Shown here: piece by piece, positions 4,756 to 11,075 of the stretch
Numbering within the stretch: the first letter of the stretch is position 1
Layout of the letters: each line of letters begins with the position of its first letter
DNA from: a virus
Virus record (IMG/VR): IMGVR_UViG_3300050138_000380
Span: 1-20,263 of that record
Direction: 5' to 3' (one strand)
Length of the DNA stretch: 20,263 bases
The notes under the pieces: model-generated
Database searches by the model: none
Seen by the model: only the letters and a program-made list of their open reading frames with translations
What the model was told of the DNA's origin: nothing
Translations under genes and position numbers: made by a program

Positions 4756-5310
4756 TTAACCATTTTCGATTTGTCTTTTTTCGAGGTTTTCAAAAAATTC
4801 ATTTAATTTCTGTAGTTCTTCAAAATGTCGATTTTCATTTAGGTTATGCCGATTCAAGATCTTTTCTTCAATTCTTAACACACAATGAGGAAATTCAAGA
4901 GGGTCATGTAAAATATAATTATTTTTTGCTCTGTTTATAAATGCCTTCAAATATTGCATATTTGACAGACAGTGCGCGCCTCCTTTTGATAAAGGATAAA
5001 TATGATCTACATCGTATCCTTTAGGACATTCGTCATAAAATTTCTGGATCATTTCTTTCATTTTTATATCGTTGGAATCTTTTTTAAAAATATGTATTCT
5101 TTTTTTTAATACTTTTTTACGATTTAAACGACCTTTTTCTGATACCAAATATTTTTTTTGTAGTTCTGCATATTTTTTCGGGTTCTCTTTTGCCCATTTT
5201 CCTTTTGATTTACTCTCTGTTTTTCTCAAATGCTCCGCAAATGGCTTGCAAATTTCATTCAATTGTTGTATCTGCTCTAAGGAAAAGCCGCCATATTCGG
5301 GTAGATTCAT
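4756..5310 (-). CDS. HNH endonuclease
   Basis: The 184-residue protein carries an HNH motif at about residues 99-131: YDVDHIYPLSKGG (metal-binding DH at 102-103), then LSNMQYLKAFINRAKNN with the central Asn. The first 80 residues are basic and helical and probably bind DNA. Such lone HNH proteins in phages act as homing-type nicking enzymes or as packaging or restriction helpers; here it sits at the end of an eight-gene accessory run, far from the terminase, so a mobile HNH gene is more likely. The start at 5308-5310 lies beside the DUF551 stop (5311-5313) with GGA upstream. It is AT-rich even for this window. Confidence 0.8.
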   Translation of the reverse strand: MNLPEYGGFSLEQIQQLNEICKPFAEHLRKTESKSKGKWAKENPKKYAELQKKYLVSEKGRLNRKKVLKKRIHIFKKDSNDIKMKEMIQKFYDECPKGYDVDHIYPLSKGGAHCLSNMQYLKAFINRAKNNYILHDPLEFPHCVLRIEEKILNRHNLNENRHFEELQKLNEFFENLEKRQIENG

Positions 5311-9145: not shown

Positions 9146-9175
9146 ATGATAAATGGCTTGGATTTATTTAGCGGA
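9146..9175 (+). pseudogene. Remnant 5' end of a cytosine methyltransferase
   Basis: Nine bases after the preceding stop, AAGGAAA and an ATG open a frame reading [11 protein letters not shown]. This is the classic start of a cytosine-5 methyltransferase (motif I, LDLFSGxGG) and closely parallels INGLSLFSG of the intact frame 600 bases downstream. The match ends exactly where the antisense HNH gene begins its 3' end. It suggests that an HNH cassette landed in the methyltransferase gene, or that two methyltransferase ends recombined. The match is short, so chance is possible. Confidence 0.45.
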
Positions 9176-9707
9176 GATTCAATTCTTCAGGTGTGTAATT
9201 CATTCTGTCAAGAAGGGCATGGCATGTTGGACATAAAATCCAAACTTTATCTAAAGTGGAATTTGATAAAGACCGCCATTGTCCATTTCTACGAAATTCG
9301 GGTTTATGAGCAATATCCAAAACTCTTTTTTCGCCACAAGATTGACAAGATTTTGGGGCAGATGGATAACGTCTATAGAAACGTTTTTGATTTCCATCTG
9401 GTTCAATTTTTTGTTGATTCAAATAATATTGTTTCATTTTTTCAGGATTTTTTTCATAAAATTTGCAACGACTTTCGTTTGCACTTTTTTTCGAGCATTC
9501 AATTGAACAATGACGTCGAGCGGCATCATCACGAGAATTTAACTGAAATTCTTTACCACATTGACGACAAAATCTCGAATTTATATAACCTGCACGTTTT
9601 TGATTCCAATAAAATTTATCTCTACATTTTGAAGTGCAAAATCTTGCTGTGGCTCTATCGCAATCATATAATACACCACATGTTTCACAATGTTTTGGAC
9701 GTTTCAT
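9168..9707 (-). CDS. HNH endonuclease with Cys-rich zinc fingers
   Basis: The 179-residue protein starts at ATG 9705-9707 ([10 protein letters not shown]). Residues 7-60 carry three CxxC-type clusters ([32 protein letters not shown]), which should form zinc ribbons. The C-terminal half is an HNH domain: [20 protein letters not shown] with the catalytic His, and [20 protein letters not shown]. It is antisense to the genes on both sides and lies between two methyltransferase starts, fitting a mobile homing-type nuclease. Its ATG directly abuts the plus-strand methyltransferase ATG (CATATG). No good ribosome binding site is visible. Confidence 0.75.
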
Positions 9708-10457
9708 ATGAATAATAGTATAGATCAAGACCATTTAGCAAACAAGGGAAAGATTAATGGATTATCACTTTTTTCTGGTATTGGGGGTATAGATGTGGCT
9801 TTATCTGAATGGGTTAGACCCATCGCCTATTGCGAAATCGACCCCTATTGTCAAGGAGTCTTGCTCAGTAGAATGGAGGATGGCGAGATAGATGAAGCGC
9901 CCATTTGGCCTGATATTAAATGCCTTGACAAGACGTGTCTAGATGATATAATTGCTCTTAAAAATGAGAGCGATTCTATGGTTGGAAAATTAAAAAAATG
10001 GACAGACGAACAAGTCCAAGAAGCAATAAAAGGTTACGAAGATGGGATGTCTGTTGCTGATTTAGCCCATATTTATGGAATGACAAGGCAGGCAATATGG
10101 GAAGTCCTAAAAAAAAGGACTATTCTTAGACCACAATTAAGATATGGAAAAGACAATCACTTTTATAGAGGCGGAGCAAGAGCTGATGCAAGAGCAAATG
10201 ATATCCTCGACAATGCCCTTCGTTATGGAAAATTGCATAATCCTGAAAAATGTTCTGTTTGTGGCGATGAAGGAAGATTCTCGGATGGAAGAACATCAAT
10301 CCAAGGACATCATGATGATTATAACAAGCCACTCGATGTGCGATGGCTTTGTCAAAGATGCCATCACGAATGGCATAAACATAATAGACCAATCCCTTAT
10401 ACAGGAGAACCCGAACCCACCAAAGATATCGACATTATCTTTGGCGGGTTCCCGTGA
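9708..10457 (+). CDS. Cytosine-5 DNA methyltransferase, N-terminal part with inserted HNH domain
   Basis: From ATG 9708 the frame gives [20 protein letters not shown], then motif I ([14 protein letters not shown]), motif II region ([12 protein letters not shown]) and the linker [15 protein letters not shown]. It then runs in frame into an HNH domain of about 155 residues, returns to methyltransferase sequence ([10 protein letters not shown]) and stops at TGA 10455-10457. Normal enzymes read GGFPCQDIS, so the stop falls right before the catalytic Cys. Alone, this half could bind AdoMet but not methylate; it could still be an HNH nuclease. The ATG at 9690 is an alternative start but would overlap the HNH gene on the other strand. 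Ribosome binding is weak (GGA ten bases away). Confidence 0.75.
9951..10424 (+). mobile_element. In-frame HNH endonuclease insertion inside the methyltransferase
   Basis: Boundaries are judged from protein families and are approximate. The inserted segment reads like a free-standing phage HNH protein: [20 protein letters not shown], a helix-turn-helix ([20 protein letters not shown]), a [13 protein letters not shown] linker, then the HNH core with [24 protein letters not shown] and QRCHHEWHK. It even has its own possible start, ATG 9978, with GAGAG upstream. It separates the linker after motif II-III from motif IV of the methyltransferase. No intein ends (Cys/Ser at the start, HN plus Cys/Ser/Thr at the end) are visible, so protein splicing is unlikely. 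Confidence 0.65.
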
Positions 10458-11061
10458 ACATGCCAGGATATCAGCGTTGCAGGACTTGGAAAAGGCTTGG
10501 AAGGAGAGCGAAGCGGCTTATTTTTCGAGATCGTGCGCTTGGCCAAAGAAATCAAGCCCACCTTTATATTTCTTGAAAACGTGCCAGCAATCACCACAAG
10601 AGGAGGACTTCGAGTCGTTAGAGAAATTGCCGATTTGGGGTATGATTGTCGATGGTGCATTATATCCGCTTCAAGCATTGGAGCCAGACACACAAGAAAA
10701 CGATGGTTCTTACTGGCCAACGCCAACGGCAAGAGACGCGACGAGGAACAAAGGAGGATCACCGAGCGATTGCAGACGAAACACTCCGAATCTTCCAACG
10801 GCTATATTGAAGATGGTAGCAACGCCAACAGCATCGCAAGCGAACAAACCAATACGATATCCGAGTCCTACGCGTCAAACGAACCAACACGGAGAGGATC
10901 TTCAAGACTCTATTGGCCGTTTGAATCCAGAGAGCATTGGCAAGAGGCTGTCAGTGGAGTTTGTAGAACTTCTGATGGGATACCGTTCCATGTGGACAGG
11001 CTTAGATCATTGGGCAATTCCGTTTGTCCTCAGCAAGCGAAAGAAGCGTTCAAAATCTTAA
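10336..11061 (+). CDS. Overlapping +1-frame protein across the methyltransferase C-terminal half
   Basis: A +1 frame is open from at least 10144 to 11061; an ATG at 10336 (MCDGFVKD) is one start choice, with no good ribosome binding site. From about 10411 its product looks like a recurrent phage hypothetical: [65 protein letters not shown], and [20 protein letters not shown] near the end, closing in a basic tail. Each of these is the +1 reading of a conserved methyltransferase block (for example [14 protein letters not shown] against [15 protein letters not shown]). So it is either a truly overprinted protein or a database family built from shifted methyltransferase frames. CCG-TGA at 10452 could also allow a +1 shift from the methyltransferase N-terminal half into this frame. 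I cannot decide. Confidence 0.4.
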
Positions 11062-11075
11062 TGGGGTTAAAATGA
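10458..11075 (+). CDS. Cytosine-5 DNA methyltransferase, C-terminal part (after an in-frame TGA)
   Basis: Directly after the TGA, in the same frame, the sequence continues [20 protein letters not shown] with the catalytic Cys (motif IV), then [13 protein letters not shown] (motif VI), [27 protein letters not shown] (motif VIII region) and [20 protein letters not shown] (motifs IX-X). All are intact, so the frame has been under selection until recently or still is. No good start lies before the Cys; TTG 10497 would omit it. Read-through, a two-part enzyme or a recent knockout by the 6-base insertion are the options. The stop overlaps the next gene as ATGA, suggesting this is the original coding frame. 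The middle (Asn/Ser-rich, 10740-10900) is the variable target-recognition part. Confidence 0.65.
   Translation, partial: TCQDISVAGLGKGLEGERSGLFFEIVRLAKEIKPTFIFLENVPAITTRGGLRVVREIADLGYDCRWCIISASSIGARHTRKRWFLLANANGKRRDEEQRRITERLQTKHSESSNGYIEDGSNANSIASEQTNTISESYASNEPTRRGSSRLYWPFESREHWQEAVSGVCRTSDGIPFHVDRLRSLGNSVCPQQAKEAFKILMGLK

Follow-up and report, generated by a model that had tools for sequence, protein, structure and literature searches.

A candidate mobile bypass cassette in the catalytic motif of a putative two-polypeptide phage cytosine-5 methyltransferase

Layout of the methyltransferase locus

We analysed a 20,263-nt viral fragment from IMG/VR (IMGVR_UViG_3300050138_000380, hereafter the window), in which a Dcm-type methyltransferase was read directly in frame 0. 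Direct reading of the window places its N-terminal part at 9690-10457 and its C-terminal part at 10458-11075, with a TGA between the two. The features of the locus, all on the plus strand, are as follows.

9690..10454, +, 5' part of the putative methyltransferase alpha subunit (frame 0), with motifs I-III, the HNH insert and the first half of motif IV (IIFGGFP)
9978..10409 (approximate), +, HTH-HNH homing-endonuclease-like insert, in frame between motifs III and IV, Met at 9978 conserved
10403..10407, +, Shine-Dalgarno-like AGGAG, 5 nt 5' of the hairpin
10413..10451, +, 5' hairpin of 15 bp, its 3' arm formed by motif IV codons, abutting the putative take-off codon
10452..10454, +, putative take-off codon CCG (motif IV Pro)
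10455..10460, +, 6-nt insert, stop TGA and putative landing codon ACA
10461..11075, +, 3' part of alpha (frame 0), from motif IV CQDIS to motif X (PF00145, phrog_363)
10642..11061, +, putative beta subunit (+1 frame, 139 aa), with the WPTPTARD region and motif IX (phrog_1008, E = 3.5e-10), conserved ATG

The 5' open reading frame of alpha terminates at the TGA at 10455-10457 and its product matches phrog_363 (E = 2e-8), while frame 0 downstream of the stop is a genuine C5-methyltransferase C-terminal half, matching PF00145 (E = 3.5e-25) and phrog_363 (E = 2e-43). Motif X (LGNSVCPQQ) is present in frame 0 of the window and the motif-IX pattern is absent from it. The HNH insert matches phrog_2340 (E = 9e-23) and is missing from uninterrupted relatives such as L008. 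Two more HNH/zinc-finger-like open reading frames lie on the minus strand of the window (4756-5310 and 9168-9734). No match was obtained in Rfam, and neither the window nor the loci scanned yielded a phage tRNA-Pro. Among the related contigs that carry the interruption, one has a predicted tmRNA gene (L167:3181-3527) approximately 1.8 kb from the methyltransferase insert.

The overprinted +1-frame protein

The first-pass annotation had described the +1 frame as open from 10144 to 11061 and as reading like a recurrent phage protein whose motifs align pairwise with those of frame 0. Direct reading agrees on the open frame, and the pairwise alignment is as described, but the protein-like character belongs to the part from 10642 onwards, which is conserved. 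Upstream of approximately 10642 the openness is incidental, and mycobacteriophage relatives have stops there. The start is the ATG of GMIVDG at position 10642 of the window, which is an ATG in 51 of 55 loci.

We find that the double coding is real and that 10642-11061 in the +1 frame is a conserved protein (PHROG_1008) carrying motif IX. Of 124 phage dcm loci, 49 have an open +1 frame across the TRD region, where synonymous-codon shuffles predict approximately 5, and 2 have an open +2 frame. The motif-IX-like pattern LNPxWVEWLMGxPxGWT occurs in the +1 frame of 66 of these 124 loci and in frame 0 of a single one, motif IX being assigned by this pattern and by relatives that have IX and X in one chain. 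Furthermore, the ratio of substitutions at codon position 3 to those at position 1 falls among 26 relatives from 1.83 outside the overlap (motifs I-III, plus CQ to codon 55) to 1.01 inside it, and in one pair of loci (L161/L164) dS drops from 2.6 upstream to 0.27 downstream. Depressed synonymous change together with the shifted codon-position pattern is what selection on a second frame would produce. The annotation had left two options, a real overprinted protein conserved along with many phage methyltransferases or a database family of shifted frames. The former stands, and the latter does so in part, since PHROG_1008 does gather the +1 proteins (35 of 35 collected match it), which are real and not artefacts.

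When the +1 protein was used as a tblastn query, mycobacteriophages with two overlapping annotated 'DNA methylase' genes were recovered, as well as Salmonella, Acinetobacter and Paenibacillus phages in which the second frame is unannotated. The deposited records of three mycobacteriophages (L001, L002, L006) annotate paired, AquI-like DNA methylase genes, and in phage Lily (L252, 1148-1639) the overlapping second frame is annotated as 'g62 internal gene'. Overprinted putative methyltransferase subunits are common in phages. On the minus strand of another locus (L164), frame 0 beyond the insert contains motif IX (LNPEWVEWLMGYPIGWT) and the +1 frame has another motif-IX-like copy, possibly a re-fusion or a frame swap between alpha and beta.

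As judged from their motifs, the two frames encode a phage cytosine-5 methyltransferase made of two polypeptides, with motifs I-VIII and X in alpha (frame 0) and motif IX in beta. Beta would act as a methyltransferase subunit and probably carries the target-recognition region. Its fold prediction is of low confidence (mean pLDDT 68) with no PDB or BFVD match, and its sequence profile matched nothing in PDB or Pfam. The precedent of M.EcoHK31I, which the annotation had invoked, is apt. M.EcoHK31I and M.AquI are two-polypeptide C5 methyltransferases, and in M.EcoHK31I motif IX resides in the second polypeptide (PMC3404938). The present alpha likewise lacks motif IX, which beta would supply from an overlapping frame, whereas in L105, L162, L165 and the mycobacteriophage pairs both IX and X are in beta, as in M.AquI. 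Unlike the window, neither system has been described with an interrupted motif IV.

A recurrent stop in motif IV and its surroundings

Frame 0 had been annotated as holding intact motifs IV to X. Instead, the in-frame TGA at 10455-10457 divides the catalytic motif IV between its Pro and its catalytic Cys (GGFP / TGA ACA / CQDIS), so that the contiguous Pro-Cys of PF00145-type enzymes is broken at the DNA level and restored only if the insert is bypassed. The segment 'AGSREHAR' is the +1 reading of the 6-nt insert TGAACA. This stop, the 5' hairpin, the Shine-Dalgarno-like element and the HNH insert, all overlooked at first pass, are the more unusual features of the locus.

Upon scanning IMG/VR with patterns that left the length and sequence of the insert free, we obtained 24 genuine dcm cases, and combination with fixed-length scans yielded 46 distinct interrupted phage dcm genes, to be compared with 96 uninterrupted ones. 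The insert falls exactly between the motif IV Pro and Cys, in both the CQDIS and the CQPFS families. Among the free-pattern cases its length is 6 nt in 18, 9 nt in two, and 15, 7, 8 and 10 nt in one each, a multiple of three in 21 of 24, and a stop directly follows the Pro codon (CCN) in 22 of 24. A generic scan for a hairpin, a stop and matching codons in the other genes of these loci returned 34 dcm matches, the rest being background. A search of 84,980 bacterial and archaeal genomes with the CQDI pattern gave five matches, all outside dcm and none a genuine case, and no stop inserts were seen in GPPCQ-type dcm genes of viral contigs. Motif IV was uninterrupted wherever readable in the isolates Llama, Lily, P12024L, SOVA965, phPA-G, BS-TP4 and others, and none of the cultured phages checked carries the element. 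We found no earlier report of it in the open-access literature searched, subscription papers being beyond reach.

Next, we examined the composition of the insert. Its first codon is TGA in 19 of the 46 genes, TAA in 19, TAG in 6 and another codon in 2, and it is never TGG, although the fixed-length pattern permitted TGG. The last codon is of the form YYN (CCN, CTN, TCN, TTA) in 43 of 46 (p = 8e-23 against an expectation of 0.25, uncorrected for relatedness), which is exactly the set that can pair with the anticodon NGG of tRNA-Pro by G-C or G-U. The window and L019 have ACA instead, with a first-position mismatch to tRNA-Pro, the weakest kind in the set, and L119 has GCG. The third base of this codon is C in 2 of 46, and the preceding Pro codon is CCC in 0 of 46 interrupted genes compared with 33 of 96 uninterrupted ones. 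Both observations are expected if one tRNA-Pro isoacceptor, reading A, G and U, serves take-off and landing, as we infer.

The region 5' of the stop is equally distinctive. We folded the 48 nt up to and including the Pro codon and compared them with shuffles. In interrupted genes a hairpin lies directly 5' of this codon (median z -4.96; 87% below -2.5), compared with a median z of 0.1 (2% below -2.5) in the same region of the 96 uninterrupted genes (p = 1.5e-20), and a Shine-Dalgarno element precedes the hairpin in 35 of 46 interrupted versus 11 of 95 uninterrupted genes (p = 3e-14), p-values that overstate certainty because related loci were counted separately in the comparisons of the 46 and the 96. 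The hairpin of the window (10413-10451) has a folding energy of -22.9 kcal/mol (z -6.5); its 5' arm sits in an otherwise variable linker and its 3' arm consists of motif IV codons. Two-sided covariation is observed at 8 of 17 pairs, exceeding 500 of 500 shuffles and every slid control, and in a larger set at most positions. Additionally, a covariance model that was built on ten of the sequences detects most of those left out. Hairpins are weak in 6 of the 46 loci (L146, L147, L151, L161, L164, L173), and in the L149/L150 clade the arms are invariant although upstream dS is about 0.5-1.5. In most interrupted genes, 3-6 nt separate the Shine-Dalgarno element from the hairpin downstream of it, and the element's distance from the last codon of the insert is 9.5 +/- 2.5 nt when the hairpin is left out (raw, 50 +/- 7.7). 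An uninterrupted dcm gene also matches the hairpin model (L117:2360-2395, E = 3e-4), the sole uninterrupted exception at low E; this may reflect loss of the insert or chance.

Finally, the interruption is associated with the homing endonuclease. An HNH domain lies within 1.5 kb of 19 of 46 interrupted versus 1 of 96 uninterrupted dcm genes, nearly always directly upstream of the interruption and in frame. All relatives with an HNH between motifs III and IV have a stop-containing Pro/Cys insert, whereas those without it are usually uninterrupted. Members bearing the HNH also have basic residues approximately 25 codons upstream, to be set beside the stimulatory nascent peptide (KKYK) of T4 gene 60. 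Two loci (L091:1801, L121:1371) are homing scars in which the HNH has been lost and the tail 'TGEPELTEDVD', the hairpin and a TGACCT insert are kept, and in L150 the whole hairpin-bearing segment differs from that of uninterrupted sister genes. On the dcm tree, which is poorly resolved owing to its few columns, the interruption is scattered, with 29 parsimony changes, of which at least 4 are forced by well-supported branches. A group I or II intron was rejected as the source of the interruption, with an insert of 6-15 nt and only approximately 20 nt from the HNH end to motif IV.

Bypassing as the probable means of passing the stop

We consider it probable that the window holds a mobile programmed-bypass cassette in the phage methyltransferase alpha gene, resembling T4 gene 60 and MobA, with a 6-nt 'stop-hop'. 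The cassette would combine an HNH homing endonuclease, in frame, with a bypass signal that follows it in the motif IV codons, namely the Shine-Dalgarno-like AGGAG, the 15-bp hairpin, the take-off CCG, the stop TGA and the landing codon. A ribosome with peptidyl-tRNA-Pro on CCG would meet the stop, the hairpin would refold behind it and, together with the Shine-Dalgarno element, bias it forward, and the tRNA would re-pair 6 nt downstream, with translation restarting at TGC to give a continuous GGFPCQDIS and, presumably, an active HNH-bearing alpha. Ribosomes that terminate would release the N-terminal part with the HNH. The insert may also destroy the HNH recognition site and so, as with T4 gene 60 and MobA, keep the nuclease from cutting the phage that encodes it.

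The strongest rival, which we regard as unlikely, is a split gene, in which the stop ends an N-terminal piece with motifs I-III and the HNH, and the Shine-Dalgarno element and hairpin direct a fresh start after it, leaving alpha in two pieces. These signals would indeed position a ribosome as for initiation, with 8-9 nt to the landing codon, and the third base of that codon forms with the Cys codon an NTG (ATG in 25 genes, GTG in 13, TTG in 6). This NTG, however, belongs to the -1 frame, whose open reading frame is short (median 15 codons versus 14 in synonymous shuffles), and few of the frame-0 landing codons (CCA, CTG, CTA, TCA and similar) are start codons. Initiation farther downstream would omit the catalytic Cys, and the YYN codons and the lengths in multiples of three would be left unexplained.

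That the gene died upon HNH insertion seems more doubtful still, even if a catalytic motif split by a stop and the large size of the HNH insert would suit a pseudogene. Frame 0 shows no further stops or frameshifts, and interrupted clades show purifying selection in both halves of the gene, the upstream halves, HNH included, with dN/dS of 0.06-0.2 and the downstream halves despite the overlap with beta, which accounts for part of the downstream constraint but not all of it. A six-member clade keeps the insert together with conserved hairpin arms, and a covarying hairpin would be out of place in a pseudogene. We conclude that the interrupted gene is maintained and is not decaying.

Readthrough or reassignment of the stop, with an added amino acid, is very improbable. 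The preservation of frame by most inserts fits it, but TAA, TAG and TGA are all in use, extra residues would be placed within the PC dipeptide, and the YYN codons, the hairpin and the Shine-Dalgarno element would go unexplained. Moreover, readthrough cannot account for the two inserts with a second stop (L024, L229) or for the three whose length shifts the frame (L119, 7 nt; L129, 10 nt; L130, 8 nt). The out-of-frame inserts are the best candidates for a frame-changing bypass; those of L129 and L130 end in the Pro codons CCG and CCC, respectively. In L129 (CCG AGTTCAA CCG), the take-off codon is not directly followed by a stop. Least probable of all is a +1 frameshift at CCG-UGA joining the alpha N-terminal part to the beta frame: Listeria phage PSA has a known +1 shift site at CCC-UGA and the +1 frame of the window is open through the insert, but the take-off codon is never CCC, beta is separated from the insert by a +1 stop in 8 of 46 loci, motifs IV-VIII would be missing from the product, and the hairpin, the Shine-Dalgarno element and YYN would again be unexplained.

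The proposed bypass cassette shares several properties with T4 gene 60 and MobA (Bonocora et al., cited in PMC5009743; also PMC3014915, PMC11194080). In both, an HNH homing endonuclease adjoins or lies inside the target gene, the insert is retained within an enzyme gene, a stop directly follows the take-off codon (TGA at 10455 here, and a stop in 44 of 46 relatives), a 5' stem-loop lies behind the ribosome at take-off, and a Shine-Dalgarno-like element is tied to landing, where the tRNA re-pairs, or here would re-pair, downstream. Unlike in T4, the hop would span 6 nt, or 7-15 nt in a few genes, as against 50 nt, and usually stay in frame, the tRNA would be Pro instead of Gly, the landing codon is often just G-U compatible, and the single hairpin is 5' of take-off with none in the gap; the gene differs, and many lineages are involved instead of a single phage. 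No natural in-frame stop-hop was known to a 2016 review (PMC5009743). The synthetic 'stop-hops' (ref 54 in PMC5009743) have the same 9-nt geometry of take-off, stop and matching landing codon with one amino acid coded, but are known from constructs, and Shine-Dalgarno and hairpin signals are added here. The byps of Magnusiomyces capitatus mitochondria (Lang et al. 2014, cited in PMC5009743) are likewise many inserted blocks bypassed in translation, as we infer for the phage inserts, with imperfect take-off/landing matches. Unlike the phage elements, they are mitochondrial, occupy 81 sites in many genes and are context-independent (PMC5009743).

Extending beyond the window, the 46 genes likely represent a widespread phage family of mobile recoding cassettes, natural in-frame stop-hops with a Shine-Dalgarno element and a 5' hairpin that HNH endonucleases have spread to the catalytic motif of methyltransferases, a reading we hold with somewhat less confidence than that of the locus itself. 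Gene callers split or miss such enzymes, which would be active. To our knowledge, bypassing in bacteria and phages comprises essentially one firmly established case, T4 gene 60. If our reading is true, this long-solitary example would be generalised, dozens of compact, independent-looking elements would open the release and regaining of the message by ribosomes to comparative and mechanistic study, and bypassing would be tied to homing endonucleases as a general strategy of self-protection.
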